Below are positions 6,775 through 53,572 of a stretch of DNA of 64,000 nt, in pieces (positions within the stretch are counted from its first letter, which is position 1; the number at the start of each line of letters is the position of its first letter). The DNA is taken from assembly GCF_036346295.1 (NCBI RefSeq), contig NZ_CP107820.1, positions 124,001-188,000 on the forward strand. The letters run 5' to 3'. The notes beneath the pieces were generated by a model. The model was not told where the DNA came from. It ran no database searches and saw only the letters and a list, made by a program, of their open reading frames with translations. Source of the stretch: Streptomyces sp. NBC_00536. Its GTDB lineage: Bacteria > Actinomycetota > Actinomycetes > Streptomycetales > Streptomycetaceae. The translations under genes were made by a program, and so were the position numbers.

Positions 6775-7605
6775 TCAGCGCCGCAGGAGGCATTCCTCCA
6801 GGAAGGCCAGGGCGCGGAGGTGGTAGGCGGTGGCCGTGTGGCCCAGGCTGATGTTGTGGCCTGAGGAAGAGAGGTGGTCGACGGTGACCGAGGGGGATGC
6901 GGTCAGGCGGGTGGTCATCGCCTGGAGGGCGGTCTCGGAGAGGTCCCACCAGGCCTCGTGCTGCGCGAAGGTGAGGCGGACCGGGATGCGGATCTCGGGG
7001 GCCAGGGTTTCGAACTGGCGCGGCCACCACATCGTTTCCGCCGACTCGCGCGGCGGGGTCGGGGCGAGCAGGGCGCGGCTGGCCTGGAAGGTGCCGCGGG
7101 GGTAGAGGCCGAGGGGGCCCCAGTTGAGCTTGGTGGCGCCGCCGCCGAGGGTGGAGGGGAAGTGCAGGGCCTCGGGGTTGTAGTGGTAGCCGACGCCGGA
7201 GGCGTCCAGGCCCAGCAGGGGCGGGGCGTCCGTTCCCCCGGCGGCCGTGTGGAGGGCGACCTTGCCGCCGTCGGAGTGGCCGAGCAGGAAGACCCCGGCG
7301 CCGAGGTCGTGCGTACGGGCGTGTTCCTTCAGGGCGGCCCGGAGGGTCTCGGCCTGGTCGGCGAGGTTCTGGCCCTCGGGCAGGTACGCCGCCGAGTCGC
7401 CGTAGCCGGGGCGGTCCACGGCCAGGACGGCGTGGCCGAGGCGGGTGGCCAGCGGGGTGAAGGCGTCCCAGTACCCGGCCCGCATGCCCCGGCCGTGGAT
7501 GGCCAGGATCGTGGCGCGGGGCGCCGCGCCCTCCGCCGGGAGGGTGAAGTGGGCGGAGAGCGGGATCCCCGACCCGGTGAGAGTGTGGACCGTACGCGCG
7601 CTCAT
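6775..7605 (-). CDS. Alpha/beta hydrolase
   Basis: 276-residue alpha/beta hydrolase. The nucleophile elbow is G-H-S-D-G, an oxyanion-type H-G-R-G lies near residue 38, and S-S-G-H-N near the C-terminus supplies the candidate histidine. It is the last gene of the long leftward operon and overlaps the TrpC paralogue (ATGA). It may act as an editing or releasing thioesterase, or trim an ester made by the BVMO. It contains the right copy of the 42-bp repeat, so this gene is the intact parent of the fragment at 2428. Confidence 0.82.
   Translation of the reverse strand: MSARTVHTLTGSGIPLSAHFTLPAEGAAPRATILAIHGRGMRAGYWDAFTPLATRLGHAVLAVDRPGYGDSAAYLPEGQNLADQAETLRAALKEHARTHDLGAGVFLLGHSDGGKVALHTAAGGTDAPPLLGLDASGVGYHYNPEALHFPSTLGGGATKLNWGPLGLYPRGTFQASRALLAPTPPRESAETMWWPRQFETLAPEIRIPVRLTFAQHEAWWDLSETALQAMTTRLTASPSVTVDHLSSSGHNISLGHTATAYHLRALAFLEECLLRR
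6900..6941 (+). repeat. 42-bp direct repeat, right copy
   Basis: Exact duplicate of 2428-2469, here inside the intact hydrolase gene. See the left copy. Confidence 0.9.
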
Positions 7606-8324
7606 CGGATCGCCAGGTCTCTGCGGGCGCCCGCCACCGCGTCCATCCAGGCGATCGGGGAGCGGGTGCGCAGCAGGGAGGTGCCGACGAGGAGGCCGGC
7701 GAAGCCCGCGTCGAGGAGGTTCGCGGCGGTCGCGGGGCCGTTGATGCCGCTGGCGCTGACCGGGGCCGGGGTGCCGGTCGCGCGGACCGCCGGGAGCAGG
7801 TCCAGGCTGCGGTGCAGGTCACCGGCGTCGCGCTCGCGCGTCTTGATGTCCTTGTTGTTGACCGCGATCACGCATTCCTCGGGGTGGTGGACCCCTTCCA
7901 GTTCGGCCTCGCTGGTGATCTCGACGAAGGGGGTGAGCCCGGCCAGCAGGCACTCGGTGACCAGGGTGCGCATGCTCGACTCGGGCAGCAGGGCGGCCGT
8001 CAGCAGGACCGCGGAGGCGCCGAGTTCCTTCGCCGCGCGGATCTGGTCCTTGCGGGTGATGAAGTCCTTCTGGAGCAGCGGCAGGTCGGTCATCGCGGCG
8101 ACGTCGCGCAGCAGGGCGGGCGAGCCGCCGAACCAGCGGCCGGTGACCACCGAGATGCAGGGGGCGCCGGCGGTCTCGTACGCGCCGACGATCGCGGCCG
8201 GGGTGCGGCCGCCGAGGAGGTCGTAGCCGTGCGCGTCGCGCCGCTTGACCTCCATCACCACCGGGGTCGGGGAGGCCAGGAGGGCCTCTAGAAAAGGGAA
8301 GCCGGTCCGGTTCTGCTTCGTCAT
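7602..8324 (-). CDS. trpC: Indole-3-glycerol phosphate synthase paralogue
   Basis: 240-residue (beta/alpha)8 protein of the TrpC family, which decarboxylates and cyclises carboxyphenylamino-deoxyribulose phosphate into indole glycerol phosphate. Catalytic-type residues remain: E25 and K27 in M-E-V-K, K86 in L-L-Q-K-D-F, E135 in F-V-E-I, N156 in V-N-N-K. The family's ASPS loop has become D-A-H-G, the Arg of NNRD is Lys, and the Glu of SESGI is Ala191 (S-A-S-G-I). ATG 8324 has GGAG 8 bases upstream. Its place beside TrpF, TrpA and TrpD paralogues, all with altered residues, argues for a specialised substrate rather than tryptophan supply. Confidence 0.88.
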   Translation of the reverse strand: MTKQNRTGFPFLEALLASPTPVVMEVKRRDAHGYDLLGGRTPAAIVGAYETAGAPCISVVTGRWFGGSPALLRDVAAMTDLPLLQKDFITRKDQIRAAKELGASAVLLTAALLPESSMRTLVTECLLAGLTPFVEITSEAELEGVHHPEECVIAVNNKDIKTRERDAGDLHRSLDLLPAVRATGTPAPVSASGINGPATAANLLDAGFAGLLVGTSLLRTRSPIAWMDAVAGARRDLAIR

Positions 8325-8362
8325 CGCCAAAGCTCCATGTCATGAAGGGAGAGAGGGGAGGC

Positions 8363-9085
8363 TCAGGAGGGGGTGCGCCAGGCTCTCGCCAGGGCGGCGA
8401 TCTGCGGGATGCCGAAGGCGCCGGTGGTCCGGTCGCGGGCGGCGGTGTCCACGTCGATGCCGCGGAAGCCGGGGTGGCGCACGACCTCCTCGTAGGCGGG
8501 CCGATTGGCCGGGTCCAGGCCTCCGGCCAGCAGGAACGGCCGGGTGAGGCGGGGCAGCAGGGCCAGCACGTCGGCCGGGTCGAGGGTGCGGCCGGTGGAG
8601 CCGATCCGGCCGTCCGCGGTGGCGGTGTCGAGGAGGAAGAGGTCGGTGCCGGCGCGTTCGTAGGCGCCGATGAGCGGGCGTTCGACGCAGCCGCCCCCGC
8701 CCGGGGTCACGTGCAGCACCTTGACGATCCCGACCTCCTCGGGGAGGGCGGACCGCAACGCCCGTACGACCGCGGGTGGTTGGTAGGCGTGGAGCTGGAT
8801 CCAGCCGACCCCCGCACGGCGGGCCAGCTCCGTCAGTTCCCCGGCGTCGGCGAGGAAGGTGACCAGGACCGGCAGGAGGCCGGCCGAGCGGGTCGCCGCC
8901 GCGAGGGCGGCGAAGGCGTCCCGGTCCAGCTCGCGGGGGCCGCCGGGCACGCCGTGCCAGAGCCCGACGCAGTCCGCCCCGGCGGCCGCCGCGGCCCCGA
9001 TGTCCTCCGCCTCCGTGGCTCCGCACACCTTCAGCAGGGTCCGGGACAAGGTGGCGGGGGAAGGAACAAAAGCCCCGGTGGTCAT
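8363..9085 (-). CDS. trpF: Phosphoribosylanthranilate isomerase paralogue
   Basis: 240-residue TrpF-family barrel, the Amadori isomerase step. It keeps the general base Cys21 in K-V-C-G and the general acid Asp153 in F-L-L-D-T. The phosphate loops G-S-T-G-R-T-L-D, L-A-G-G-L and G-I-D-V-D also match the family. Differences include K-V-C-G-A-T in place of KICGIT and a G-I-D-V-D ending that lacks the usual S-S-G-V-E. The start overlaps the dehydrogenase stop (ATGA). With the neighbouring TrpD and TrpC paralogues it gives a complete amine-to-pyrrole sequence. Confidence 0.88.
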   Translation of the reverse strand: MTTGAFVPSPATLSRTLLKVCGATEAEDIGAAAAAGADCVGLWHGVPGGPRELDRDAFAALAAATRSAGLLPVLVTFLADAGELTELARRAGVGWIQLHAYQPPAVVRALRSALPEEVGIVKVLHVTPGGGGCVERPLIGAYERAGTDLFLLDTATADGRIGSTGRTLDPADVLALLPRLTRPFLLAGGLDPANRPAYEEVVRHPGFRGIDVDTAARDRTTGAFGIPQIAALARAWRTPS

Positions 9086-10227
9086 TTGCCGAGTCCCAGC
9101 ATCGAGGCGATGCGGTTGTACTGGATCTCGTTCGTGCCGGAGTAGATCGTGCCGCCCACGGCGTTGCGGACGTCGATCTCCAGCCCGTACTCCGCCATGT
9201 AGCCGTGGCCGCCGAAGATCTGCACGGCGGTGAGGCTGGTGGCGAGGTTGCTCTCGCTGGTGACGAGTTTGGATATGGCGAGGTCGACGGTGATGTTCTC
9301 GCCCGCCTCCAGCTTCTCGCCCGTGTCGTAGAGCCACTTGCGGGCGGTCTCCAGCTGGATCTTCGTGTCGACGATCTTGTTGGCGATCGACTGGTACGAG
9401 CCGATCGACTTGCCGAACGACCTGCGCGTCTTCGCGTATTCGACGCACCGGTCCAGCCGGTGCTGCATCTCGCCGACGTTGACGATGAAGGAGTAGAGGA
9501 TCTCCCGTTTCATCACGTGGTCCAGGACCATGAATCCGCCGCCGACCCGGCCGAGGACCGCCGTCCTGGGGACCCGTACGTCGTCGAAGAACAGCTCGCA
9601 GAGCGGCGAGGTCCGCAGCCCCATCTTCTTGAGCGGTGTGCCCGCCGTGATGCCGGGGGTGTTCCGGTCCACCAGGAAGGCCGTCGTGCCGAGCGGGCCG
9701 CCGTCCGGATGGGTGCGGGCGTAGACCACGATCACGTCCGCGATCGGCCCGTTGCTGACGAAGACCTTGCTGCCGTTGATGACGAAGTCGTCGCCGTCGC
9801 GGACCGCCCGGGTGGTCATCGCCATGGCGTCCGAGCCGCCCTCGGCCTCGGTGATGGCGTGGGCGCCGATCGCCTCTCCCGAGGCGATCAGGGGCAGGTA
9901 GCGCTCCTTCTGCCCGGGGGTGCCGAACTGCTGGACGGGGATTCCGGTCGAGCAGATCGAGGTGGTGACGGAGAAGCTGAGACCGGAGTCCCGGTTGTAC
10001 TCGCCGAGCCCTTCCAGCACGTACATGGTGGTCAGGACCGACTGGCCGAGGCCGCCGTACTGCTCCTCGAAGGGCAGGGAGAGGATCCCGGTCTTCTGGA
10101 CGAGCTTCCACTTGTCCTCGGAGAAGGCGGACTTCTCGTCGAGTTCGAGATGGTCTGCGCTGAGGGCGTCTCCCCACCGCTCCAGGCCTTCGCGCAGATC
10201 TGCCTGGTCGGAGTTCCAACGGATCAC
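9082..10227 (-). CDS. Acyl-CoA dehydrogenase-family flavoprotein
   Basis: 381 residues with the full acyl-CoA dehydrogenase fold: F-E-E-Q-Y-G-G-L-G, I-T-E-A-E-G-G-S-D, Y-A-K-T-R-R-S-F-G, I-F-G-G-H-G-Y. The residue that is the catalytic Glu in MCAD-type enzymes is Ser363 (I-Y-S-G-T-N-E-I-Q). Glu242 in K-R-E-I-L-Y lies where isovaleryl-CoA dehydrogenase places its base. GTG 10227 has AAAGGGG about 7 bases upstream. An adjacent adenylation enzyme and PCP make an aminoacyl-S-PCP substrate likely, as in the oxidation of prolyl-PCP in pyrrole pathways, but here the substrate is inferred. Confidence 0.85.
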   Translation of the reverse strand: MIRWNSDQADLREGLERWGDALSADHLELDEKSAFSEDKWKLVQKTGILSLPFEEQYGGLGQSVLTTMYVLEGLGEYNRDSGLSFSVTTSICSTGIPVQQFGTPGQKERYLPLIASGEAIGAHAITEAEGGSDAMAMTTRAVRDGDDFVINGSKVFVSNGPIADVIVVYARTHPDGGPLGTTAFLVDRNTPGITAGTPLKKMGLRTSPLCELFFDDVRVPRTAVLGRVGGGFMVLDHVMKREILYSFIVNVGEMQHRLDRCVEYAKTRRSFGKSIGSYQSIANKIVDTKIQLETARKWLYDTGEKLEAGENITVDLAISKLVTSESNLATSLTAVQIFGGHGYMAEYGLEIDVRNAVGGTIYSGTNEIQYNRIASMLGLGK

Positions 10228-10271
10228 GACGGACCCCTTTGAATAGTGAATCGTGGTGTGTCTGCGGGTGC

Positions 10272-10317
10272 GGGCCGCCCGGGGCCGGGAATCGCGGTCG
10301 TGGCTCCCGGGCGGCCC
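10272..10317. terminator. Stem-loop inside the long operon
   Basis: Perfect 12-bp arms GGGCCGCCCGGG and CCCGGGCGGCCC just after the ectoine-synthase-like gene, in a 98-bp gap before the dehydrogenase. It may act as a partial terminator or an mRNA processing site. Confidence 0.55.
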
Positions 10318-10325
10318 CGGGTGGT

Positions 10326-10700
10326 TCAGTAGGCCGAGGAGCTGTGGGCGTCGAGGTTGTGCACCTCGTTGCCGCGCAGGGCGGGCGAGAAGACGCAGAC
10401 CAGGCGCAGGTCCTCGTCGGGGCTGGCGACCAGGAAGTGGGCGTCGTGCTGGTCGAGCGCGTACATCCGGCCGGGGACGATCTCGTGCGAGGTGCCGTCG
10501 AGTTCGATGACCTCGCCGGAGCCGGCGATGCAGTAGCAGGCTTCCAGGTGGTTGACGTACTCCAGGCGGGACTTGGTGCCGGCCAGCACGACCGTGTCGG
10601 TCAGCGTGTAGCCGAGGCCGTCCTCGGCCAGGAGGAAGCGGCGGCTCAGGCCGTTGCCCCACTCGACGGTCTTCACGGACTCGATGTCACGAACGATCAT
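10326..10700 (-). CDS. ectC: Ectoine synthase homologue (EctC-type cupin)
   Basis: 124-residue cupin that follows ectoine synthase along its whole length. EctC cyclises N-gamma-acetyl-diaminobutyrate by loss of water. The residues placed around the metal in EctC are present: Glu53 (N-H-L-E-A), Tyr80 (R-M-Y-A-L-D) and His88 (H-D-A-H). ATG 10700 has GGGAG 6 bases upstream. No EctA, EctB or EctD is nearby and the gene sits between Trp paralogues and an acyl-CoA dehydrogenase. It is therefore probably recruited for another cyclodehydration of an amide with a side-chain amine, rather than osmolyte synthesis. Confidence 0.88.
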   Translation of the reverse strand: MIVRDIESVKTVEWGNGLSRRFLLAEDGLGYTLTDTVVLAGTKSRLEYVNHLEACYCIAGSGEVIELDGTSHEIVPGRMYALDQHDAHFLVASPDEDLRLVCVFSPALRGNEVHNLDAHSSSAY

Positions 10701-10756
10701 GGCGAACTCCCGATGTGTGAGGGTGAGCGGAGGGACGAGAGGTACTGGCGTGCAGG

Positions 10757-11626
10757 TCAGGCGGGTACGGCGGGTACGGCGGCGGGCAGGACCGAGCGGA
10801 CGAACTCCCGGAAGGCTTCGGGCACATCGCGCCCGTCCCGCTGGGCCCGTTCCACGGCGGCCACCGCGGCCGAGCCGATGATCGCGGCGTCGGCGCCGCT
10901 GGCCCCGACGGCTTCCACGTCCTGGCGGGTGCTGACCCCGAAGCCGACGGCGATCGGCGAGTCGGTGTGCGCCCGCAGGCCGGTGACGGTGTGGGCGAGC
11001 GCGGCGTGGCCGGTGGCGGGGGCCGTGCCGCTGCGCCCGTAGTGGGCGACGAGGTAGAGGTAGGCCGAGGCGGAGGCCGCCGCCTGGGCCCGGGTGTCGG
11101 CCGGGCTCTGCGTGTAGCAGGTGGTGACCACCGGGAGCCCGGCCGCGGCGGCCGACTCCAGGTGCTCCGCGCGCAGCCTGGGGGGCAGGGCGTGGACGAG
11201 GAGTCCGTCCGCGCCCGACGCGGCGATCTCGCGGGTGACGGCGCCGAGGTCGCGGTCCCCGAGGGAGTACCTCCAGTCGGTGAGCAGGGCGATCCGGGTG
11301 TGGTTCAGGTGCGGCCGTACGTCCGCCACGAAGGCGAGTACGTCGTCCAGCGCGGCCCCGCCCCGGTCCAGTGCCCGGCGCGCCGAGCGCCGGATGACGG
11401 GGCCGTCGGTGACCGAGTCGGGGAAGGGCACGGCCAGTTCGAGGCAGTCGACGCCCTCCTCGTCCAGCATCAGGACGAGGTCGCGCAGGACCGGGAGCGG
11501 CGGGTCGCCCGCGTTGAGGAAGAGGGCGAGTCCGGGGGCTCCGCCGGGGGTCCGGCGCCCCGGGAAGAAGGGCGCGGGAGCCGAGGACACGGGAGTCGAG
11601 GACGCGGGCTTCGTGGGCTCAGGCAC
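10757..11626 (-). CDS. trpA: Tryptophan synthase alpha-subunit paralogue
   Basis: 289-residue TrpA-type barrel. TrpA cleaves indole glycerol phosphate to indole and glyceraldehyde 3-phosphate. The catalytic Glu63 (L-E-L-A-V-P-F) and Asp74 (S-V-T-D-G-P-V-I) are in place, with G-F-G-V-S-T and I-I-G-S-A phosphate loops. The usual loop-2 DLP is replaced by H-A-L-P-P, and the segment that contacts TrpB is divergent. There is no trpB here, so it may free an indole-like product as the plant enzymes BX1 and IGL do. GTG start at 11626 overlaps the TrpD paralogue by 8 bp. Confidence 0.87.
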   Translation of the reverse strand: MPEPTKPASSTPVSSAPAPFFPGRRTPGGAPGLALFLNAGDPPLPVLRDLVLMLDEEGVDCLELAVPFPDSVTDGPVIRRSARRALDRGGAALDDVLAFVADVRPHLNHTRIALLTDWRYSLGDRDLGAVTREIAASGADGLLVHALPPRLRAEHLESAAAAGLPVVTTCYTQSPADTRAQAAASASAYLYLVAHYGRSGTAPATGHAALAHTVTGLRAHTDSPIAVGFGVSTRQDVEAVGASGADAAIIGSAAVAAVERAQRDGRDVPEAFREFVRSVLPAAVPAVPA

Positions 11627-12701
11627 GGGACACCGCCCGGGTGCGCGGCGCCGGGGCGGCCGGCTTCGGGGCGGGCTTGGGGCCCGGCTTCGGGGCGGCG
11701 GCCATGCGCTCGGCCAGGTCCCGGGCGGCGCCCGAGAGGATCGCGCCCTGGGCCAGGGCGACCGCGGAGGGCCAGTCCCTGCGGGTGCCCTCGGCCACGA
11801 GCAGGGCCGCGGCCCCGAGTGCGACCGTACGGGTGGCCACCGCGCCCGCCGTGCCGGAGAGCACGGAGAGGAAGTGCGAGACGGCGTCGGCCGGGTCGGT
11901 CACCGGCCGCAGGTCCCCGAAGGAGCCGTCGCCCGGGGCGAGTTCGCCGGGCCTGATGATCCGGGTCATGGCACGCTCCCCGTAGACGGTGTTGGTGGCG
12001 AAGGGCAGCAGCTCGTCCGCTCCGGTGTCGTTCGCGGTGAGCCAGATCCGCCGGGTGAGGGTGGACGCGGCCAGCTGGCGCAGGGTGTCCAGCGGCGCGG
12101 CGGCCGAGACCCCGGTGATCTGGGCGGCGACCGGCAGGTCGGCGAGGAAGGGGCCGAGCGCGTTCAGGAAGCGGCCGAAGGGCTTCATGCTCAGCGGGGC
12201 CACGGTCCGCGCCAGCCGGGTCAGCTGCGCCGGGTAGACGAAGGGCCCGGCGAAGGCGATCCCGTACGCGGCGAGGGTGTCCTCGGTCTGGGCGTAGGAG
12301 GAGGTGAGGCGGACCCCGAGCCGTTCCAGCAGGTCGACGGAGCCGAGCGAGCTGGTGTAGGCGCGGGAGCCGGTCTTGACCACCTTCACCCCGGCGGCCG
12401 CGGCGACGAACGCCGAGGCGGTGGAGATGTTGAAGGTGCGGGGTCCGCCGCCGGTCCCGACGACGTTGACGGTGCCCTCCCAGGGGCCCGTCACCGTCGT
12501 CGGCGGGCGGCGTTCGGCGAGCGAGTCGAGCAGGTGGCGCAGGGTGTCGTGGTCGGGGAGCCGGCTGGTCAGCGAGGCCAGCAGACCGACGACCTGGGCG
12601 GTGTCGAGGCCGCCGTCGCCCAGCAGGTCCCACCAGGAACCCCAGGTGTCGCGCCCGATCGGAGCCTTCTGTTCCAGCAGGCCGGTGAGTGCCTCGTGCA
12701 C
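11619..12701 (-). CDS. trpD: Anthranilate phosphoribosyltransferase paralogue
   Basis: 360-residue TrpD-family protein, which joins an aromatic amine to PRPP. The PRPP site is recognisable (V-G-T-G-G-G at 81-86, N-I-S-T at 91-94) and the metal pair D229-E230 is kept. The Asp of GTGGD is Gly86, and the KHGNR motif reads K-T-G-S-R (109-113), losing the His and Asn. The anthranilate-side region is also remodelled, so another amine or enamine may be the acceptor. GTG 12701 follows a strong GGGGGAG. A C-terminal K-P-A-P-rich tail of about 30 residues is probably disordered. Confidence 0.85.
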   Translation of the reverse strand: MHEALTGLLEQKAPIGRDTWGSWWDLLGDGGLDTAQVVGLLASLTSRLPDHDTLRHLLDSLAERRPPTTVTGPWEGTVNVVGTGGGPRTFNISTASAFVAAAAGVKVVKTGSRAYTSSLGSVDLLERLGVRLTSSYAQTEDTLAAYGIAFAGPFVYPAQLTRLARTVAPLSMKPFGRFLNALGPFLADLPVAAQITGVSAAAPLDTLRQLAASTLTRRIWLTANDTGADELLPFATNTVYGERAMTRIIRPGELAPGDGSFGDLRPVTDPADAVSHFLSVLSGTAGAVATRTVALGAAALLVAEGTRRDWPSAVALAQGAILSGAARDLAERMAAAPKPGPKPAPKPAAPAPRTRAVSRA

Positions 12702-12738: not shown

Positions 12739-12990
12739 TCAGGCCGCCGCGCGGGCGTCGGCGATGAAGTGGTCGATCGCCTCCACGCTGCGGAAGTTGT
12801 TCGGGTCGAGGTCGGCGTCGCCGACGGCGAGCTCGAAGCGGTCCTCGACCCAGGCGATCAGCTTGAGGACGCCGAGGCTGTCGATGACCCCGTCGTTGAG
12901 GAGGTCGTGGTCGACGGCCAGCTCGGTGGGGGCGGTGCCCGGGAGGAACTCGGTGATGACGAAGTTCTTGATGGTGTCGACGTTGCTCAT
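12739..12990 (-). CDS. Free-standing peptidyl/acyl carrier protein
   Basis: 83 residues, four-helix carrier protein. The phosphopantetheine serine is in D-G-V-I-D-S-L-G-V near residue 38, similar to the stand-alone PCPs of pyrrole pathways. ATGA overlap with the adenylation enzyme upstream makes that enzyme its likely loading partner. It would be activated by the PPTase at 27130-27777. Confidence 0.9.
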   Translation of the reverse strand: MSNVDTIKNFVITEFLPGTAPTELAVDHDLLNDGVIDSLGVLKLIAWVEDRFELAVGDADLDPNNFRSVEAIDHFIADARAAA

Positions 12991-14546
12991 GACGGGATTC
13001 CTTCGGCGAGAGGAGCGGCGGACGCGGCAGTGGTGACAGGAGTGATGGGAGTCAGGCGGTCGAGCGCCTTGCGGTCGACCTTTCCGGTGGCCGTCTTCGG
13101 CAGCGGCTCGTCGGTGAGCGTGAGCTGCGTGGGGACGGCGTTGCGGGGCAGGTGCCGGGCGCAGTGCGAGCGCAGGGCGAGGACGGTGAGGGTGGAGCCG
13201 GGCGTCCGCTGGACCCCGGCGACGAGCTTCTTGCCGCCGATCGGGTCGGGTACGGCGCTGACGCCCGCTTCCAGGACCTCGGGGTGTTCCTGCAGGACCC
13301 GTTCGATCTCGGCGGTGTTGACGGCGACCCCGCGCACCTTGACCTGGAAGTCGGTGCGTCCGGTCAGGTGCAGGGTGCCCTCGGCGTCGCGTCGTACGAG
13401 GTCTCCGCTGCGGAACCAGCGGCGGTCGTCCAGGCCGAGCGGGTGCCCGGTGAACTTGTCGGCGTGCCGGGTCCGGTCGAGGTAGCCGCGGGTCTGGAAG
13501 GGGGTGGAGACGTACAGTTCCCCGCTGCCCGCGCCCTCGACGAGCGCGCCGGTGACCGGGTCCAGGACCAGGGCGTGCACCCCGGGGAGCGGGCGGCCGA
13601 TGGGGACGGGCGGGAAGGAGGTGGCCGATGTGTCGACCTCGTGGATGAAGCTGTCGTTGGTCTCGGTGCACCCGTAGATGTTGTGGACGCGGGCCTTGGG
13701 GAAGAGCGTCGGCAGGGCGGCGAAGGTGCGGTCCGCGATGGCGTCGCCCGTGAACATCACGTGCTCGACGGTCTCGAAGGTGAAGCCGGTCTTGGCGGCC
13801 GCGTCCTGGAGCAGGCCGAAGGCCATCGGGACGGCCTGTACGACGTGCACCTCGTGCCGGTCGACCAGGTCGAGCAGGTGACGGCCGTGGGCGGCGAGGG
13901 CGGGGTCGACCAGGACGGTCCGCCCGCCGCGGGCCAGGGTGGTCCACACGTCCAGCAGGCACAGGTCGAAGTTGAGGGGGGCGTAGTTGAGGACGGTCCG
14001 GTCGGGTCCGATGTCGAAGGCGGCGCCCGCCCAGGCGACGAACCGGTCCACCTCGTCCCGGCCCAGGGGGACGATCTTCGGCAGGCTGGTGGAGCCGGAG
14101 GTGGTGAGCAGGAAGGCCACCTCGGCGGCCTCCTCGGCGGGCAGCGGCTGGGCCGCCACGTCCGGGTTGGGACCCACCCGGGCGCTCTCCCCGCCGGGGG
14201 CGAGTACGTGCGTACACCCGGCCTGGGCGAAGAGGTCGGCGAGCAGGGTGTCCGCGAGCGCCGGGGACGGCAGCATCACCGGGCGGCGGGCGAGCAGGCA
14301 GGCGAGGACGAGGGCGACGGTGGCCGGGGACTTGTCGGCGAGGACACCGACCGGCTCGCCGGGGGCGAGGGCGAGGCGGGCCAGGCGGTCGCGTTCGCGG
14401 CCGGCCAGGTCGTACAGCTCGCGGTAGGTGGTCTCGGCCCCGTTGAAGACGAGGGCGGTGGCGTGCGGCCGGTCGTGGACCTGGGTCAGGAATCCGGCGA
14501 CGAGGCCGGGGGCGGGAACCTGCCGGGTGTTCACGGCGGTGGTCAT
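12987..14546 (-). CDS. Stand-alone amino-acid adenylation enzyme
   Basis: 519-residue AMP-forming ligase with all core motifs: T-T-S-G-S-T-S-L-P-K, Y-G-C-T-E-T, W-F-R-S-G-D-L, G-R-T-D-F-Q-V-K-V-R-G and the catalytic Lys in K-T-A-T-G-K-V-D. A4 reads N-F-D-L-C-L-L-D, so Asp235 (which binds an alpha-amino group) is kept. A hand alignment gives a specificity code of about D-L-L-M-M-T-I-D-S, with an Asp at position 330 that could contact a basic side chain; the middle positions are uncertain. A perfect AAGGAGGTGA precedes the ATG. It should load the adjacent PCP. Confidence 0.88.
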   Translation of the reverse strand: MTTAVNTRQVPAPGLVAGFLTQVHDRPHATALVFNGAETTYRELYDLAGRERDRLARLALAPGEPVGVLADKSPATVALVLACLLARRPVMLPSPALADTLLADLFAQAGCTHVLAPGGESARVGPNPDVAAQPLPAEEAAEVAFLLTTSGSTSLPKIVPLGRDEVDRFVAWAGAAFDIGPDRTVLNYAPLNFDLCLLDVWTTLARGGRTVLVDPALAAHGRHLLDLVDRHEVHVVQAVPMAFGLLQDAAAKTGFTFETVEHVMFTGDAIADRTFAALPTLFPKARVHNIYGCTETNDSFIHEVDTSATSFPPVPIGRPLPGVHALVLDPVTGALVEGAGSGELYVSTPFQTRGYLDRTRHADKFTGHPLGLDDRRWFRSGDLVRRDAEGTLHLTGRTDFQVKVRGVAVNTAEIERVLQEHPEVLEAGVSAVPDPIGGKKLVAGVQRTPGSTLTVLALRSHCARHLPRNAVPTQLTLTDEPLPKTATGKVDRKALDRLTPITPVTTAASAAPLAEGIPS

Positions 14547-15409
14547 GGCTGGTCACCTCCTTCCGCGGACGGCCCCGCGAACTCGATCCAGCCGCTCTTG
14601 ACGGCCGCGCCCTTGGGGGTCTTGCAGGTGAAGCGGACGACCCGGGCCTCGGCGTCGGGCTGCAGGACGATCTCCAGCGGGACACCGGGGGGCACGGGGG
14701 CGGAGAAGCGGCCGCCGAGGCCGCGCACCCGGCCGGAGTCGCCGTCGGCGAAGCGGTCCACGGCCTCCTCGACGGCGAGGGCGACCACGCTCATGCCGTG
14801 CGCGATGACGGTGTCGAAGCCGGCCGCGCGGGCGGCCTCCGCGTCGAGGTGGATGGGGTTGAGGTCGCCGGACGCGTGGGCGTACGTACGGATCCGGTCC
14901 GGGGTCAGCTCGTGCGTCACGCTCTGCGGCGGGCCCGCGCCGAGCGGGGCGGGGGCGGGGGATCCGCCCGCGATGTCACCGAAGGGCTCCAGCAGGGTGG
15001 CGCCCACCAGCAGGGCGGAGATGACCAGTTCCGCGAAGGGTTCCGGTCCGGTGGCCCCCGCGCCCTGCCCGGTCAGCCGGACCCGCAGCGCGATCCGGGC
15101 GCCGCGCGGCTCCTTGCGCACGCCGAGGACCTCCAGGCGTACCGTGACCTCCTCATCCGGGCGGACCGGGCGCAGGACGCGGATGTCCTGGCCGAGGTGG
15201 ACCACGGAGACCGGGCCCGGCTCGGCGGCGGTCAGCTCGGCCACGGTCTGTTCGGCGACGGTGTGGGCGAGGACGAAGGGGTGTACGGGCGAGGCCTGGC
15301 CGGGGGCGGCGGGCGCCAGCCCGGGGCGGGCGGCGGCCCGGTAGCCGGTGACGTCGGCCTCGGTGACGGTCAGGGTGCGGACGGGGGCGGGCAGGGCGAG
15401 GAGCGTCAT
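14543..15409 (-). CDS. MaoC-type double-hotdog dehydratase
   Basis: 288 residues, two hotdog halves. The C-terminal half carries the hydratase-2 motif Y-A-H-A-S-G-D-L-N-P-I-H-L-D with its Asp and His. The N-terminal half is degenerate, as in FAS and PKS-associated MaoC proteins. It would dehydrate 3-hydroxyacyl-ACP after the ketoreductase at 19240. It is coupled by ATGA to the ketosynthase before it and to the adenylation enzyme after it. Confidence 0.83.
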   Translation of the reverse strand: MTLLALPAPVRTLTVTEADVTGYRAAARPGLAPAAPGQASPVHPFVLAHTVAEQTVAELTAAEPGPVSVVHLGQDIRVLRPVRPDEEVTVRLEVLGVRKEPRGARIALRVRLTGQGAGATGPEPFAELVISALLVGATLLEPFGDIAGGSPAPAPLGAGPPQSVTHELTPDRIRTYAHASGDLNPIHLDAEAARAAGFDTVIAHGMSVVALAVEEAVDRFADGDSGRVRGLGGRFSAPVPPGVPLEIVLQPDAEARVVRFTCKTPKGAAVKSGWIEFAGPSAEGGDQP

Positions 15410-16659
15410 ACCGGCGTCACCACCACGGAGGAGTTGTGGCCGCCGAACCCGAAGGAGTTCGTGATCGCGGGCCCCGGCCGGACGGCGCGCGGCGCGCCGT
15501 GGACGACGTCGATGTCCATTCCTGGCTCCAGCTGTTCGAGGTTGGCGGTGGGCGGCACCTCGCAGTGCCGCATGGCCTGCACGGTGGCGATGAGTTCGAC
15601 GGCGCCTGCGGCGCCGATGAGGTGGCCGATGACGGACTTGGGGGCGGTGACGGGGGGCTGCGCGGTGCCGAACACCTTGGTGAGGGCGGCGGCCTCGGAG
15701 CGGTCGTTGTACGGGGTGGAGGTGCCGTGCGCGTTGACGTGCACGATGTCGGTGGGGTCGAGGCCCGCGTCGGCGATGGCCCCGGCCATGGCGGCGGCGG
15801 CTCCGGCGCCGTCGGGCAGCGGCATCGCCAGGTGGTGGGCGTCGGCGGTGGCGGCGTACCCGGCGACCAGGCCGTAGGTCTTCGCGCCGCGGGCCCGGGC
15901 GTCGTCGAGGCGTTCCAGGACGACGAACCCGGCGCCCTCGCCCATCACGAACCCGTCGCGGTCCACGTCGAAGGGACGTGAGGCGTGCTCGGGGTCGTCG
16001 TTGCGCAGCGAGACGGCGTTGAGGTTGCCGAAGCCGGCCAGGGTGACCGGGGTGAGCGTGTGCTCGCAGCCCCCGGCGAGGACGAGGTCGGCGCGGCCGG
16101 TCTGGAGGAGCATCAGGGCGTGGCCGATGGCGTCGGCGCCGCTGGCGCAGGTGTTGGCGACGGTGAGGGCGGGGCCGGTCCAGCCGAGCCGGATGGCGAT
16201 CTGGGCGGCCGCCGCGTTGGGCATGGTCATCAGCGGCATGAGCGGGTTGACCCGGGCCGGTCCGGCCTCGGTGTAGTGGGCGGACTCCAGGTCGCTGGTG
16301 GCACGGCCGCCGACGGCGTTGCCGACGACGATGGCGGTGCGGCCGGCCTCGGCGGCCGGTGATCCGGCGTCGCGGTGGGCGGCGAGGGCGGCGGCCGTGC
16401 CGTAATGGGCGAAGGGGTCCATCCGGCGGGCCTCCTTGGCGGGGACCAGCCCCGCCAGCTCCTCCAGACCGCGGACGCGGCAGCCGATGCGGACCCGGTG
16501 GCGGCTGAGGTCGAGGTGGGTCAGCTCGGCCGCGGTGGACCGGCCGGTCCGCAGCGTGCTCCACAACTCGTCCGGGGTGCACCCGCCGGGGGTGACCACG
16601 CCCATGCCGGTGATGGCTACGGGCGGCTGCGCCGAACTGCCCCTGGACGATCCAGGCAT
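15406..16659 (-). CDS. FabF-type beta-ketoacyl-ACP synthase (KAS II)
   Basis: 417-residue condensing enzyme with Cys171 (N-T-C-A-S-G), His311 (N-A-H-G-T-S-T), Lys341 and His346 (K-S-V-I-G-H). ATG 16659 is preceded by GAGGAG; the frame stays open upstream but those residues are not KS-like. No chain-length factor lies beside it, so it acts as a homodimeric FabF-like elongase. With KAS III, ketoreductase, MaoC and ACP it gives a small dedicated fatty acid synthase that feeds the cluster. Confidence 0.9.
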   Translation of the reverse strand: MPGSSRGSSAQPPVAITGMGVVTPGGCTPDELWSTLRTGRSTAAELTHLDLSRHRVRIGCRVRGLEELAGLVPAKEARRMDPFAHYGTAAALAAHRDAGSPAAEAGRTAIVVGNAVGGRATSDLESAHYTEAGPARVNPLMPLMTMPNAAAAQIAIRLGWTGPALTVANTCASGADAIGHALMLLQTGRADLVLAGGCEHTLTPVTLAGFGNLNAVSLRNDDPEHASRPFDVDRDGFVMGEGAGFVVLERLDDARARGAKTYGLVAGYAATADAHHLAMPLPDGAGAAAAMAGAIADAGLDPTDIVHVNAHGTSTPYNDRSEAAALTKVFGTAQPPVTAPKSVIGHLIGAAGAVELIATVQAMRHCEVPPTANLEQLEPGMDIDVVHGAPRAVRPGPAITNSFGFGGHNSSVVVTPV

Positions 16660-16715
16660 GTCTCTCCTCGGTGACGGGTGCGGGAGGCGGGAGGGTGGGG
16701 CCGGTGAGCGCGGGG

Positions 16716-17927
16716 TCAGATGATCCGGCACTCGCGGGCGGACTTGATGAAGGCCTCGGCGGCGAAGTCGATGTCCGCCTTGGTGTGCGCGGCGGTGATG
16801 GCGATCCGCAGCCGGGCCAGGTCGTTGGGGACGGCCGGCGTGACCACCGGGAGGCCGATGACCCCGTTCTTGCGGCAGGTGGTCGCGTAGTCGTAGGCGG
16901 CCTCGTCGGACCCGGCGATGATCGGGACGACGGCGGTCTCGCTGTCGACGGTGCTCATCCCGGCGTCGTGGAGCATGCCGCGGAAGCGCGCCGACTCCTG
17001 CTGGATGAACTCGACCCGCTCCGGCTCGCGCTGGAGCACCCGCAGGGACTCCAGGGCGGCGGCGGCCTGGGCCGGGCCGAGGGCGGCGGAGAAGAGGAAG
17101 GGGCGGGCGGCGTACTTCAGGTGGTGGACCAGCTCCGCGGAGCCCGCGACCCAGCCGCCCATGGAGGGGATGGCCTTGGAGAGGGTGCCGAGCTTGATGT
17201 CGACCTTCACCTCGTGGTCGAAGTGCTCCTCGATGCCCCTGCCGGTGGCGCCGATGACACCGAGCGCGTGGGCCTCGTCGACCATCAGCAGCGCGTTGTG
17301 GGCGTCGCAGACCTTGCGCAGCTCCACGAGGGGGGCGATGTCGCCGTCCATGGAGTAGACGCTGTCGACGATGACCAGGCGGACCCCGGTGTCGGGGGCG
17401 GCGGCCAGCCGGCGCTCCAGGTGCGCCACGTCGTTGTGGCGGAAGCGGGTGACGGTGGCGCCGGAGAGCTTGCAGCCGTCGACGATGCTGGCGTGGTCGT
17501 ACTTGTCGATGAAGACGGTGTCGCCGGGGCCGACGATGGCGCCGACGGTGCCCACGTTCGCCGCGTAGCCGGAGCCGAAGACGAGGGCCTTCTCGCGGCC
17601 CGCGAACCGGGCGACCTCCGCCTCCAGTTCCTCGTGCAGCGGGGTCGAGCCGGCCAGGGCGCGCACCCCGTGGTTGCCGGTGCCGTAGAGGTCCACGGCG
17701 GCCTTGGCGGCCGAAACCACCCGTTCGTCACCGGCGAGGCCGAGGTAGCTGTAGCCGGACATCATCAGCAGCCGCTGGCCGTCCTGGTCCGCGTACGCCG
17801 AGTCCCGCTCCACCGTGTATGCGACGAAGCTGTTCTTGCGGTTGGGCTCGTACTCAAGGGACCGGACGCGGTCCCGGAAGTAGGCCAGCTTCGGCTCCAG
17901 GCGGTCCCAGGCGGCGGATGCGTTCAC
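16716..17927 (-). CDS. Alpha-oxoamine synthase (PLP)
   Basis: 403-residue PLP enzyme of the AONS/KBL/ALAS family. Lys251 in G-T-L-S-K-A is the Schiff-base lysine and D217 in V-D-E-A-H holds the pyridine nitrogen. These enzymes condense an acyl thioester with an amino acid with loss of CO2, giving an aminoketone. GTG 17927 has GAGGAG 6 bases upstream. It is the first gene of the long leftward operon and lies beside a ketosynthase, so acyl-ACP is the likely acyl donor, as in prodiginine and saxitoxin type pathways. The amino acid partner is unknown. Confidence 0.9.
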   Translation of the reverse strand: MNASAAWDRLEPKLAYFRDRVRSLEYEPNRKNSFVAYTVERDSAYADQDGQRLLMMSGYSYLGLAGDERVVSAAKAAVDLYGTGNHGVRALAGSTPLHEELEAEVARFAGREKALVFGSGYAANVGTVGAIVGPGDTVFIDKYDHASIVDGCKLSGATVTRFRHNDVAHLERRLAAAPDTGVRLVIVDSVYSMDGDIAPLVELRKVCDAHNALLMVDEAHALGVIGATGRGIEEHFDHEVKVDIKLGTLSKAIPSMGGWVAGSAELVHHLKYAARPFLFSAALGPAQAAAALESLRVLQREPERVEFIQQESARFRGMLHDAGMSTVDSETAVVPIIAGSDEAAYDYATTCRKNGVIGLPVVTPAVPNDLARLRIAITAAHTKADIDFAAEAFIKSARECRII

Positions 17928-18209: not shown

Positions 18210-19139
18210 GTGCTGATCAGACTCGTAGGCCTTGTCACGATCGAGCCGGACGGAGCCCCGCCACAGCACCTCTCCAGCGCCCAGGCGCAGGTGGCGTTCG
18301 CCCGTCTCCTCCTCGAACGGGCAGGGGGCACCGAACGTGACCAACTGGCCGAGACCGTATGGCCCGAGGGACTGCCCGACACCTGGGCCTCGGCGCTGCG
18401 CAGCGTCGTGAGCCGGGTACGGACCTTCGTCACCACCCCGCAGGACCAGCCGGGGGTGACGCCCCTGATCGCGCAGGGCGGCCGGTACGTGCTGCGGATA
18501 CCGCAGGACGCCGCCGTGGACGTGGAGTGCGCGGAGACGGCGGTCGCGGAGGCGGCCGAGGCGTACGCGGAGGGCGCCTACGCGGTGGCCCAGCAGCTGG
18601 CGGCCGGCGCGGTCTCGAACCTGCGCGGCTCGTTCCTGCCCTCGCACGAGGGGGACTGGGTCAACGCGGTGCGCGAGCAGCTGGAGGAGCTGCGGCTCAA
18701 GGCGCTGGAGATGGCGAGCCTGTCCTCGTCCGCGCTGGGCGACCAGCACCACGCCCTGCGGTACGCCGAGGAGGCGGTGCGGCGGGCTCCGTTCCGCGAG
18801 AGCGCGTACCGCTGCCGGATGGCGGCGCACACCCGGGCGGGCAACCGCGCCGAGGCGCTGCGCAGCTACCAGCAGCTGCGCGAGGTGCTGGCGGAGGAGC
18901 TGGGGATCGATCCGGCGCCGGAGACGGAGGCGGCGTACCTGGACCTGCTGCGCACGCCGGAGCCGCGGCCCGCGGCGCGGCCGTTCGCGGTCCTGGACCC
19001 GTTCCTGATGGGCATGTTCGAGGTGGACCGGGCGGCGGCCCCGCAGCCGTGCTCGCTGTCGGACCACGGCTGCGTGACGCACCCGACGGCGGCGGGTCCG
19101 GCGGCCGCGCGGCCGGCCGCCTCCCACCCCGCGGCGTAG
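18210..19139 (+). CDS. SARP-family pathway activator
   Basis: 309 residues: an OmpR-like winged-helix DNA-binding domain (about 1-95, with S-S-A-Q-A-Q-V-A-F-A-R-L-L-L), then a bacterial transcriptional activation domain (about 100-250, ending L-G-I-D-P-A-P-E-T-E), as in ActII-ORF4. GTG 18210 has GGAG 8 bases upstream. It is transcribed away from the oxoamine synthase operon, at the centre of the cluster, and is its likely switch. I saw no TTA codon. The C-terminus is a short Ala/Pro-rich tail. Confidence 0.92.
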   Translation: MLIRLVGLVTIEPDGAPPQHLSSAQAQVAFARLLLERAGGTERDQLAETVWPEGLPDTWASALRSVVSRVRTFVTTPQDQPGVTPLIAQGGRYVLRIPQDAAVDVECAETAVAEAAEAYAEGAYAVAQQLAAGAVSNLRGSFLPSHEGDWVNAVREQLEELRLKALEMASLSSSALGDQHHALRYAEEAVRRAPFRESAYRCRMAAHTRAGNRAEALRSYQQLREVLAEELGIDPAPETEAAYLDLLRTPEPRPAARPFAVLDPFLMGMFEVDRAAAPQPCSLSDHGCVTHPTAAGPAAARPAASHPAA

Positions 19140-19239: not shown

Positions 19240-19992
19240 TCAGGTGATCGACACGCCGCTGTCGATGCTGATGACCTGGCCGGTCATGCAGTCCTGGTCC
19301 AGGAACAGGCCGGCGCTGCGCGCGACCTCCTCGACCGTCACGAACCGCGGGATGGGGGCCTTGTCCTCCATGCCCTCGATCACCCGGTCCGGCAGGTCCT
19401 TCGTCATCCCCGTGATCATGAACCCCGGGGACAGCGCGTTCACCGTGACGCCGCGCCGGCCGCACTCCGACGCGAGCGTGCGGGTGAAGCCGATCAGGCC
19501 CGCCTTGGACGCCGAGTACGCCGTCTGCCCGGCCGTCGCGATGATGCCCGACGGGGAGACGATGTTGATCACCCGGCCCCAGCGCTGCCGCAGCATGGCC
19601 GGGACCGAGGCCCGGGCCGTGTGGAAGGACCCGATCAGATTGGTCTGGATGACCTGCGCCCAGTCCGCCGGGTTCTGCATCGCCATGAGGCCGTCCTTGC
19701 GGATGGCCCCGTTGTTGACGAGTACGTCGACGGGCCCGAGCGCGGCGGTGATCTCCGCGTACATCCCCTGGACCGTCTCCCAGGAGCCGACGTCGCCCGT
19801 GACCAGCACGGACGGGTTCGTCAGCTTCTCCTGGACCGCCACCGCCGCGTCGCGCGAACTGTTGTAGTGCACCGCGACCCGGCAGCCCAGGGCGTCCAGC
19901 TCCAGCGCCAGCGCCTGGCCGAGACCGCCCGAGGCGCCGGTGACGAGCGCGACCGGGGACTCGGGCCGCTGGCCCGCACTCTTGTTGCTCAT
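19240..19992 (-). CDS. FabG-type 3-oxoacyl-ACP reductase
   Basis: 250-residue classical SDR. T-G-A-S-G-G-L-G binds NADP(H), N-N-G-A-I follows, and the catalytic set is Ser in N-I-V-S-P-S-G with Y-S-A-S-K. It ends with the I-S-I-D-S-G-V-S FabG signature. The ATG overlaps the KAS III stop (ATGA). It reduces the beta-keto group of each chain-extension round before MaoC dehydration. Confidence 0.88.
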   Translation of the reverse strand: MSNKSAGQRPESPVALVTGASGGLGQALALELDALGCRVAVHYNSSRDAAVAVQEKLTNPSVLVTGDVGSWETVQGMYAEITAALGPVDVLVNNGAIRKDGLMAMQNPADWAQVIQTNLIGSFHTARASVPAMLRQRWGRVINIVSPSGIIATAGQTAYSASKAGLIGFTRTLASECGRRGVTVNALSPGFMITGMTKDLPDRVIEGMEDKAPIPRFVTVEEVARSAGLFLDQDCMTGQVISIDSGVSIT

Positions 19993-20975
19993 GCTGCCGC
20001 ACCGCCCCATTCCATCAGGATCGAACCCCATGTCATACCGGCGCCGAACCCGGCCAGCAGGACCTTGTCACCGGCCTTGATCCGGCCCTCGTCGAGGGCC
20101 TCCGCCAGCGCGATCGGGATGGAACCCGACGCCGTGTTGCCGTACTTCTGGAGGTTGGTGATCAGCGCCTCCTGGCGCAGCCCGGTGTGGGACATGATCG
20201 AGTTGATGATCCGGATGTTCGCCTGGTGCGGCACCACGTGGTCCACGTCGGCCGCGTCCACCTTGGCGCTCTCCAGCGTCTCGCGCACCGTACGGACGGT
20301 GTAGCGGACGGCGTTGAGGTAGATCTCGTTGCCGTTGATCTGCGCGTAGTGCAGACCCGCGTCGAGCGTCTCCTGGGTGGTCGGCATCCGGCTGCCGCCC
20401 GCGAGCACCTTCAGGGATCCGGTGCAGGAGCCGTCGGCGCCCAGGTTCCAGGCCTTGACCCGGTTCTCCGGCCCGGCCTGGAGGACGACGGCGCCCGCGC
20501 CGTCGCCGACCAGGATGGACAGGTCCCGGTCGGCCGGGTTGGCCGTCAGGGTGTGGGTGTCGGAGCCGATCAGCAGGATCGGCCGGGGGTCGATCGCGAT
20601 GAGGGCCATCGCGGAGACGAGCCCGTAGACGAAGCCCGCGCACTCCGAGTTGACGTCGTGCGCGCTCCCGGCGATGCCGAGTTCGTGGTGGACGAACGCG
20701 GAGGTCGCCGGGGACGGCTGCTCCGGAGTCGCCGTGGCGACGATGAGGTGGGCGATGTCGGCGCCGGTCAGGCCCGCCTTGTCCAGAGCGCGCCGGCCGG
20801 CCTCGACGGCCAGGGAGACGGTGGTCTGCCCCGGATCCACCGCCCGCCGCTCACGGATCCCGCAGCGGCTGACGACCCAGTGCTCGTCCACGCCGAAGCG
20901 CTCCGCGAGTTCCGCACTGGTGACGACGCGCTCGGGTACGGACATGCCCCACCCGGTGATGTCGAAGCCGGTCAC
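19989..20975 (-). CDS. KAS III (FabH-type) ketosynthase
   Basis: 328 residues with the FabH triad Cys112 (N-S-E-C-A-G-F), His250 (V-P-H-Q-A-N) and Asn280 (G-N-T-A-S-G-S). FabH enzymes start chains by condensing an acyl-CoA with malonyl-ACP, so this sets the starter unit. S-E-C-A in place of the common A-A-C-S suggests a specialised starter. GTG 20975 follows a G-rich SD. Second gene of the leftward ACP-KAS III-ketoreductase unit. Confidence 0.9.
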   Translation of the reverse strand: MTGFDITGWGMSVPERVVTSAELAERFGVDEHWVVSRCGIRERRAVDPGQTTVSLAVEAGRRALDKAGLTGADIAHLIVATATPEQPSPATSAFVHHELGIAGSAHDVNSECAGFVYGLVSAMALIAIDPRPILLIGSDTHTLTANPADRDLSILVGDGAGAVVLQAGPENRVKAWNLGADGSCTGSLKVLAGGSRMPTTQETLDAGLHYAQINGNEIYLNAVRYTVRTVRETLESAKVDAADVDHVVPHQANIRIINSIMSHTGLRQEALITNLQKYGNTASGSIPIALAEALDEGRIKAGDKVLLAGFGAGMTWGSILMEWGGAAA

Positions 20976-20995: not shown

Positions 20996-21250
20996 TTACG
21001 CCTGCGCCGGGACGAGCTCGACGATCTTCGCGTAGACATCACGCAGAGTCGTCGTGTCGTCGAGGTCCGCGAAGAGCGACTCGTCGGCCGGGATGTGCGG
21101 GTAGTTGGTCTGGAATCCGTACAGCCACTCCATCAGGTCCAGCGAGTCGACGTCCGCGATGTGCTGGAGCGGGGCGTCGGGGCTGACCTCTGCGGCACCC
21201 GAAACGGCCTCGAGCTGGCTCGCCAGTTCTTCGATGGTGGGCAGCGACAT
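20996..21250 (-). CDS. Acyl carrier protein
   Basis: 84 residues, ACP fold with the phosphopantetheine serine in D-V-D-S-L-D-L-M near residue 38. ATG 21250 is used; the open frame upstream is not ACP-like. First gene of its unit, behind a promoter carrying the cluster's direct repeat. It is the probable scaffold for the fatty acyl chain; the PCP at 12739 would carry the amino acid. Confidence 0.9.
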   Translation of the reverse strand: MSLPTIEELASQLEAVSGAAEVSPDAPLQHIADVDSLDLMEWLYGFQTNYPHIPADESLFADLDDTTTLRDVYAKIVELVPAQA

Positions 21251-22406: not shown

Positions 22407-22415
22407 GAGGCCGAC

Positions 22416-53571: not shown

Positions 53572-53572
53572 G

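Follow-up and report, generated by a model that had tools for sequence, protein, structure and literature searches.

Why do four enzymes of the tryptophan route, TrpD, TrpA, TrpF and TrpC, stand together in a biosynthetic operon that has neither TrpE nor TrpB? The operon lies in a 64,000-nucleotide stretch of Streptomyces sp. NBC_00536, called the window below, which corresponds to positions 124001-188000 of contig C2 (267,650 bases) in a genome of 9.15 Mb. A preliminary description of this DNA had reported the four genes in company with an adenylation enzyme, a peptidyl carrier protein (PCP), an acyl-CoA-dehydrogenase-fold enzyme (ACAD), a homologue of the ectoine synthase EctC, an oxoamine synthase and a ketosynthase (KS), and family scans agree. 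A Pfam scan of 40 window proteins, which covered the genes to the right of 26 kb in part, gave no TrpE, TrpG or TrpB. As an answer, eight of these genes form a core whose probable product is a PCP-bound pyrrolopyrrole, built by chemistry of the Trp type. The core is transcribed from the minus strand in the following order, with several neighbouring genes overlapping at their ends, and it is followed by a hydrolase gene.

12987..14546, minus strand: stand-alone adenylation enzyme with the substrate-specificity code DLLQMTIDSK (Pfam AMP-binding, 2.2e-50)
12739..12990, minus strand: PCP or acyl carrier protein, carrier of the building block (Pfam PP-binding, 2.6e-5)
11619..12701, minus strand: TrpD-like phosphoribosyltransferase (Pfam Glycos_transf_3, 8.9e-33)
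10757..11626, minus strand: TrpA-like retro-aldolase (Pfam Trp_syntA, 1.2e-41)
10326..10700, minus strand: ectoine-synthase-like cupin (EctC-like), proposed to close a cyclic amidine (Pfam, 7.7e-37)
9082..10227, minus strand: ACAD, nearest to L-prolyl-PCP dehydrogenases (NCBIfam PigA/RedW; PDB 4irn)
8363..9085, minus strand: TrpF (PRAI)-like protein, Amadori isomerase (Pfam PRAI, 2.3e-9)
7602..8330, minus strand: TrpC (IGPS)-like protein, ring-closing (Pfam IGPS, 4.4e-37)
6775..7605, minus strand: alpha/beta hydrolase, possible release or editing enzyme (Pfam/NCBIfam scan; present in 22 of the 40 other oxoamine-synthase loci, in stretches of up to about 20 kb)

Curated NCBIfam cut-offs were passed by the TrpA-like protein (TIGR00262, 136 versus 102.35 bits) and by the EctC-like protein (137.4 versus 128), and the TrpD-, TrpF- and TrpC-like proteins score under theirs. 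A search for trp genes elsewhere in the genome, which the preliminary description had proposed along with family trees, retrieved on contig C1 housekeeping-type trpC, trpD and trpA, a trpB-like PALP gene, trpE and a second PRAI gene. The cluster TrpC, TrpD and TrpA are only 32-36% identical to these copies. Trees were built for two of the four proteins, TrpC and TrpD, and this comparison used 27 of the 84 TrpC and 24 of the 75 TrpD cluster sequences; the controls were the best-scoring 30 loci per enzyme from 40 genomes, of which 28 passed for TrpD. A single branch parted the 27 cluster rows from the 30 housekeeping rows of TrpC, with a support of 100/100 in the careful tree, whose bootstrap is not fully settled. 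For TrpD, the 24 cluster and 28 housekeeping rows were likewise parted by one branch (support 100, quick tree), and the distant row L042 is long in both trees. The two outcomes set beforehand as contrary to a specialised role, branching with housekeeping enzymes and a genome with no other trp genes, were not what was found.

Residues were also compared, at positions fixed by motif and by alignment to solved structures. The tallies cover related sequences, the window included, and are not independent events; sequences under the length limits were left out, so that 74 of 75 matches were kept for the adenylation enzyme, 75 of 76 for TrpD and 75 of 77 for TrpA. In the TrpC-like proteins, E51, K53, K110 and E159 are kept in 84 of 84, and we take Lys110 and Glu159 to be catalytic. 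The residues that we take to form the substrate site, Ser56-Pro57, Arg182 and Glu210, have changed: E210 is Ala in 84/84 and R182 is Lys in 83/84, while S56 is kept in 8/84 and P57 in 15/84. All four are kept in the 30 housekeeping controls. Against Mycobacterium tuberculosis TrpD, the KHGNR motif reads KTGSR in the window. Its His and Asn, presumably the anthranilate contacts, are replaced by Thr or Ser and by Ser, respectively, in all 75 TrpD-like sequences, and both are kept in 28/28 controls; the Asp-Glu pair of the metal site is kept in 75/75. The controls were chosen by the motifs KDF (TrpC) and GTGGD (TrpD), so that they keep Lys110 and the Asp after GTGG by construction and carry no control evidence for these two residues. 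Cys7 and Asp126 are kept in 80/80 TrpF-like sequences, as are Glu49 and Asp60 in 75/75 TrpA-like ones. The fold families and catalytic residues of housekeeping TrpD, TrpF, TrpC and TrpA are thus shared by the cluster versions, which differ in their substrate sites. Because of the split in the TrpC and TrpD trees and of the changed substrate-site residues, the four enzymes look like specialised paralogues rather than housekeeping enzymes. Together with the trp genes found elsewhere, this supports the earlier suggestion of a ribose-based ring-building module that does not serve tryptophan.

The grouping of the trp genes is not a matter of chance, since the core recurs. A scan of named genomes with the TrpC-like alignment gave 95 relatives, the best 80 of which were taken, from Streptomyces, Kitasatospora, Kibdelosporangium, Nocardiopsis, Lentzea, Arthrobacter and others. 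The full set of eight core genes was present in 67 of the 80 loci, and 64 of these 67 had the order and strand of the window; in the other three, TrpF-TrpC come first and in one of them the rest is inverted. The 13 other loci were without some core gene in the stretch examined, several of them near contig ends: L121 and L129 had only TrpC, L117 was without the adenylation enzyme and TrpF, L127 without TrpA and L144 without EctC. TrpC was not found in L060 and L061 within 20 kb. Core gene distances were correlated at 0.70-0.94 across 68 loci which, with the constant order and strand, indicates that the core genes travel as a unit.

In the genus sample, a TrpF-like match was found in 51 of 392 genomes at E 1e-8, and 21 of the 392, the own genome included, reached at least 52% identity. 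Below this group, the next-best match was 33% identical, and weaker matches reach 40%. The own genome was the only one with a TrpC-like match at E 1e-35 among 396 genomes across the phylum, and with a TrpF-like match at E 1e-30 among 31 genomes of the family sample. In three genomes (contig C1 of G129, G199 and G272), the TrpF-like gene occurs twice with equal score, near both ends, as in terminal inverted repeats. Two relatives come from metagenome bins labelled as non-Actinomycetota (Dormiibacterota L138 and Acetobacteraceae L168), which may be binning errors. Plasmids of Aliiroseovarius crassostreae (L042, L043, L045) carry divergent core copies with 31-55% identity, split into two nearby blocks. 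These copies are accompanied by a KS pair and by transglutaminase, UbiX and UbiD genes, and a UbiD homologue is also present in 8 of the 15 transglutaminase-type named loci.

How could such a core build a ring? The steps proposed here are all read from sequence and family chemistry. The adenylation enzyme would first charge the PCP with an alpha-amino acid, for which L-glutamine is the likeliest candidate. The EctC-like cupin would then join the alpha-amine to the side-chain amide and give a cyclic amidine, ADPC-S-PCP (ADPC, 5-amino-3,4-dihydro-2H-pyrrole-2-carboxylate), which the ACAD would oxidise to 5-aminopyrrole-2-carbonyl-S-PCP. The TrpD-like enzyme would attach phosphoribose to the exocyclic amine and the TrpF-like enzyme would carry out an Amadori rearrangement. 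In the TrpC-like enzyme, the neighbouring pyrrole carbon would attack the ketone with loss of water, and decarboxylation would not be needed. Finally, the TrpA-like enzyme would cut the side chain off as glyceraldehyde 3-phosphate, leaving a PCP-bound pyrrolo[2,3-b]pyrrole. The idea in the preliminary description that TrpD, TrpF, TrpC and TrpA turn an enamine and phosphoribosyl pyrophosphate (PRPP) into a fused pyrrole is kept as the best reading, but the decarboxylating, anthranilate-like form of the route is disfavoured by the changed substrate-site residues. The glutamine route employs each core enzyme once and without decarboxylation, in line with these changes. If the pyrrolopyrrole is accepted, a start from glutamine and EctC has at best an even chance of being correct.

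What points to such a start is found in the first three enzymes, and ADPC derived from glutamine reportedly has a precedent in anthelvencin. In passages of PMC6344544 and PMC4795551, EctC is described as turning glutamine into ADPC, a proline-like cyclic amidine, in a side reaction; the latter speaks of two glutamine molecules that condense. The cluster protein shares with EctC the family, the cupin metal site and most substrate contacts: W21, S23, R25, T40, Y52, E57, Y84, H92 and F106 are kept in 78/78, among them the Fe ligands E57, Y84 and H92 and the residues that handle the amide. It differs from EctC proper by its place in a PCP-based operon and at N38, which is Thr in 74/78, Cys in 2/78 and Ala in 2/78. 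In the EctC of Paenibacillus lautus (PlEctC), N38 contacts the substrate carboxylate according to a passage of PMC6344544, and its replacement by Thr suggests, as far as residues can tell, a fit to a thioester substrate. At E 0.001, the genome gave no match to the ectoine synthase family other than this protein, and no EctA- or EctB-like protein was found among the scanned proteins near it. A single-sequence AlphaFold model, with a mean pLDDT (predicted local distance difference test) of 36.3, was set aside. The top PDB match of the ACAD was the prolyl-ACP dehydrogenase 4irn, and its NCBIfam scores fall below the cut-offs of both prolyl-PCP dehydrogenases, PigA (345.8 bits, cut-off 500) and RedW (338.8, cut-off 650). 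Over 74 adenylation enzymes, the code has D235 in 74/74 and the polar residues Q278 in 73/74, D330 in 74/74 and S331 in 73/74. D235 is usual in the codes for alpha-amino acids; it is present in EntF (Ser) and absent from the aryl-acid enzyme EntE, in an alignment that is loose around EntE and at EntF 330/331. Beta-alanine and Asp were considered as substrates and rejected since, by the usual code rules, the presence of D235 and the lack of a basic code residue argue against both.

The pyrrolo[2,3-b]pyrrole had been deduced from the genes before a parallel was found in kosinostatin. Table 5 of PMC7918784 describes the kosinostatin/quinocycline cluster as building a pyrrolopyrrole from a pyrrole and PRPP, and an ectoine-type gene is called in that cluster in the same source. 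The kst (Micromonospora TP-A0468) and ksn (S. albidoflavus) clusters share with the window a TrpF homologue, an ectoine-type gene call and, in the reading proposed here, the building of a pyrrolopyrrole from PRPP. According to an excerpt of PMC13099267, replacing ksnC3, a PRA-isomerase homologue, abolished kosinostatin in S. albidoflavus, and the cluster is present in 18 of 34,389 Actinomycetota genomes. Nocardiopsis alkaliphila is presented in a passage of PMC7918784 as a species with an almost complete kosinostatin cluster. Its locus, L156, has all eight core genes in the order of the window, with a chain length factor (CLF) homologue of 68% about 16 kb away on the same contig, and also a transglutaminase-like gene. 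The window has its stand-alone adenylation enzyme and PCP beside the Trp-type genes, and a discrete adenylation enzyme and PCP are reportedly described for the kosinostatin cluster by Ma et al. in 2013. The module of the window is of the same kind as that of kosinostatin. The earlier statement that no cluster with this combination was known to be described is not supported, the logic being already reported in passages of PMC7918784 and PMC13099267.

Several points weigh against this pathway. We know of no Gln code that the code DLLQxTxDS-K would match; its Asp330 could instead bind a diamino acid, and the Aliiroseovarius copy reads DLLHLAIDT. In the EctC-like protein, the equivalent of Trp21 stands before a three-residue insertion. 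Asn38 of EctC has also been proposed to aid activation of the alpha-amine via Thr40 (a passage of PMC6344544), and the N38T change might alter the chemistry instead of carboxylate binding. The gene content of kst is known here from the descriptions of citing papers, and no product of the oxoamine-synthase type of cluster was found among the literature matches listed. Finally, nicotinic acid is named as the precursor of the kosinostatin pyrrole in passages of PMC5321127 and PMC7918784 (Table 5), and intact incorporation of labelled nicotinate, if real, would mean that the first three steps are wrong.

This last point leads to the alternative that survives best, which is nevertheless unlikely: the same pyrrolopyrrole module, with an adenylation enzyme that loads nicotinate, the ring being contracted to a pyrrole before the TrpD-, TrpF-, TrpC- and TrpA-like enzymes act. 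Besides the stated nicotinate origin of kosinostatin, feeding experiments were reportedly described by Ma et al. in 2013. Yet the invariant D235 (74/74) is absent from the aryl-acid enzyme EntE, Pfam reveals no pyridine-contracting oxygenase among the core proteins of the window, and, according to a passage of PMC7918784, the cluster of the second producer lacks KstB7, the deformylase invoked for this route. A simpler product, a 3-substituted pyrrole-2-carbonyl-PCP, is somewhat less probable still. Here, the ACAD would alpha,beta-desaturate a PCP-bound diamino acid or other amino acid, the four Trp-like enzymes would close one pyrrole on the enamine, and EctC would act elsewhere. It uses the same enzymes, and Asp330 of the code could hold the side-chain amine, but it gives the conserved EctC no clear function and fails to yield the bicyclic pyrrolopyrrole that kosinostatin contains (as described in PMC7918784). 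In a third alternative, the genes would raise the output of ordinary indole or tryptophan, derived from anthranilate, as a precursor of a peptide or alkaloid. Extra trp genes that serve precursor supply are known from the calcium-dependent antibiotic cluster, and those of the scytonemin cluster give a further precedent (a passage of PMC13055916). This reading is highly improbable here in view of the TrpE and TrpB not found among the 40 scanned proteins, the altered KHGNR motif and the separate side of the TrpC and TrpD trees.

Two further candidates were rejected. A free-indole role of the BX1 type was ruled out by the lack of TrpE among the scanned proteins and by the changed anthranilate site. 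Recruitment of PriA, as for AdeK of adechlorin (a passage of PMC13055916), was set aside as PriA is of the HisA type and the TrpF-like protein of the window matches PRAI.

With a pyrrolopyrrole module as the preferred reading, the next question is what the unit is made for. Upstream of the core on the same strand lie genes for a MaoC protein, a FabF-like KS and the oxoamine synthase, and past a divergent regulator gene those for a short-chain dehydrogenase/reductase (SDR), a ketosynthase III (KSIII) and a small carrier-like protein.

14543..15409, minus strand: MaoC-type dehydratase (Pfam MaoC, 4.8e-25; in 40/40 other oxoamine-synthase loci)
15406..16731, minus strand: FabF-like KS (TIGR03150, 449.6 bits, cut-off 493.75; PRK07314, 448.2, cut-off 387; in 40/40 other oxoamine-synthase loci)
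16716..17927, minus strand: alpha-oxoamine synthase, BioF/Kbl-like (family scans)
18210..19139, plus strand: regulator of the SARP (Streptomyces antibiotic regulatory protein) type with BTAD, divergent (family scan)
19240..20031, minus strand: FabG-like SDR (family scans)
19989..20975, minus strand: KSIII, FabH-like (family scans)
20996..21250, minus strand: a further small gene resembling carrier proteins (with a VDSL motif; assigned by eye, Pfam giving no match)
21510..26264, plus strand: tailoring genes for a CMAS-type methyltransferase, a monooxygenase and an oxidase that use flavin adenine dinucleotide, and an SRPBCC protein (family scan)
26752..27777, plus strand: 4'-phosphopantetheinyl transferase (family scan)

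These KS, KSIII, MaoC and SDR proteins would, with the oxoamine synthase, extend or condense the unit in an oxoamine-synthase line resembling fatty acid synthase (FAS), not an aromatic type II polyketide synthase (PKS). Prodiginine biosynthesis is the model for the oxoamine-synthase step. By analogy, this enzyme may join a carrier-bound acyl group, either the pyrrolopyrrole or a FAS-type chain, to an amino acid, which is the least certain part of the proposal. As in the prodiginine branch that leads to 4-methoxy-2,2'-bipyrrole-5-carbaldehyde (PigA/RedW, RedM, RedO), the window has an adenylation enzyme, a PCP, a prolyl-PCP-dehydrogenase-like ACAD, a KS and an oxoamine synthase. Unlike that branch, it has no Pro code (DLLYLALVCK), its ACAD stays under the cut-offs, and Trp and EctC enzymes are added. 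An origin of the cispentacin (amc) type had been suspected from a match of the carrier to AmcB and was ruled out, the matches being under the cut-offs (43.7 bits for AmcB, cut-off 80; 214.3 for the KS with AmcF, cut-off 325; pathway after a passage of PMC10698177). No NCBIfam model of AmcG or AmcH was among the matches, neither having had a dedicated search.

Across loci, the module stands beside several types of assembly line, called flavours here. Among 84 loci, which are the 80 relatives, the window, L040, L041 and L042, 41, the largest group, had an oxoamine synthase as in the window and 17 a transglutaminase-like gene; in four, KS and MaoC were present but no oxoamine synthase was found within the stretch examined, and 22 were neither or cut. 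Each of the 40 other oxoamine-synthase loci also has KS and MaoC. A FastTree tree of seven genes, with several long branches flagged, covered 68 of the 84 loci. In it, a supported set of 23 rows unites 14 transglutaminase-type loci with nine of the 11 'neither/cut' ones and includes N. alkaliphila L156; L156 is thus outside the module clade of the window, whose smallest supported sets (9, 12 and 21 rows) hold only oxoamine-synthase loci. A third flavour was observed in L040 (S. clavuligerus), L126 (S. jumonjinensis) and L146 (Kitasatospora), with neither transglutaminase nor oxoamine synthase (L040 20001-22104, L126, L146) and with a gene of the Glu/Leu-dehydrogenase family after TrpC in 3/3 scanned. 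In L040, the module is adjoined by condensation (C), adenylation and thioesterase domains of a nonribosomal peptide synthetase (NRPS), and in L146 by a C-PCP protein. At least three assembly-line types therefore sit beside the module. The tailoring set of the window (methyltransferase, two flavoenzymes, SRPBCC protein) is also present in L038, L039, L051, L099 and L159, most other loci being too short to show it.

Kosinostatin combines an aromatic type II PKS with an octose, whereas the window shows no aromatic KSalpha/CLF and carries genes for an oxoamine synthase, a KSIII and a MaoC protein instead. KSalpha homologues were grouped in six of nine non-oxoamine loci viewed with wider flanks. 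KSalpha/CLF was not found in any of 40 oxoamine-synthase loci of about 20 kb, but neither was it in any of 15 transglutaminase-type loci, so that this count has little weight. The argument rests instead on the own genome and on two further oxoamine-type genomes (L096, L159), whose CLF matches are on other contig numbers than the record of the module. In the window, the only KSalpha-like gene found was the FabF-like KS (38%), and the closer KSalpha genes (64-65%) are on C1; the window cluster is thus not the kosinostatin cluster. Some 77 kb away from the module, at G000:C2:215015-219253, three adjacent KS genes with 35-38% to KSalpha were also observed.

In seven named genomes, two modules that differ in flavour are present (L117/L165, L124/L167, L125/L139, L128/L148, L132/L162, L141/L142, L146/L153), which suggests two products per strain. 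Near oxoamine-type modules, a gene resembling pyridoxal-phosphate (PLP) decarboxylases and class V aminotransferases and a DUF6875 gene recur, in 10 and 11 of 40 named loci, respectively. This pair was seen in L075 from 472 and in the flanks of L038 and L039, and the own genome has its copy some 10 kb beyond the window. Elsewhere in the window, a gene at 3357-4718 encodes an NsdA-family regulator (343.9 bits, cut-off 75). At 46866-56051 lies a separate NRPS-like region, in which stretches of the AMP-binding, methyltransferase, PCP, condensation and MbtH-like kinds are followed by a further condensation protein, and at 57398-61960 an ABC-transporter gene comes after that for cytochrome bd oxidase subunit I.

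Neither a link between ectoine synthase and pyrrolopyrroles nor a named oxoamine-synthase pyrrolopyrrole cluster was found among the literature matches listed, whose coverage mostly leaves out subscription journals. A wider proposal, tentative when its three parts are taken together, is that the first ring of all these pyrrolopyrroles would come from glutamine on a PCP via the EctC-like enzyme and the ACAD, and not from nicotinate; that the window would represent a large family in which an oxoamine synthase links the unit to a reduced chain, as a new class of non-anthraquinone alkaloids; and that a third, NRPS-linked family would exist in Streptomyces clavuligerus and relatives. The ring-building logic is already known from kosinostatin, and what would be new, in this cluster and many relatives, is its attachment to a different assembly line. 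The 21 of 392 genus genomes with a TrpF-like protein of at least 52% identity and the assembly-line types beside the module suggest that Trp-type ring building may be a portable cassette beyond one rare antibiotic. It also hints at a possible role of ectoine synthase outside osmoprotection, and the sequences of the module may help in the search for new compounds of the pyrrolopyrrole kind.

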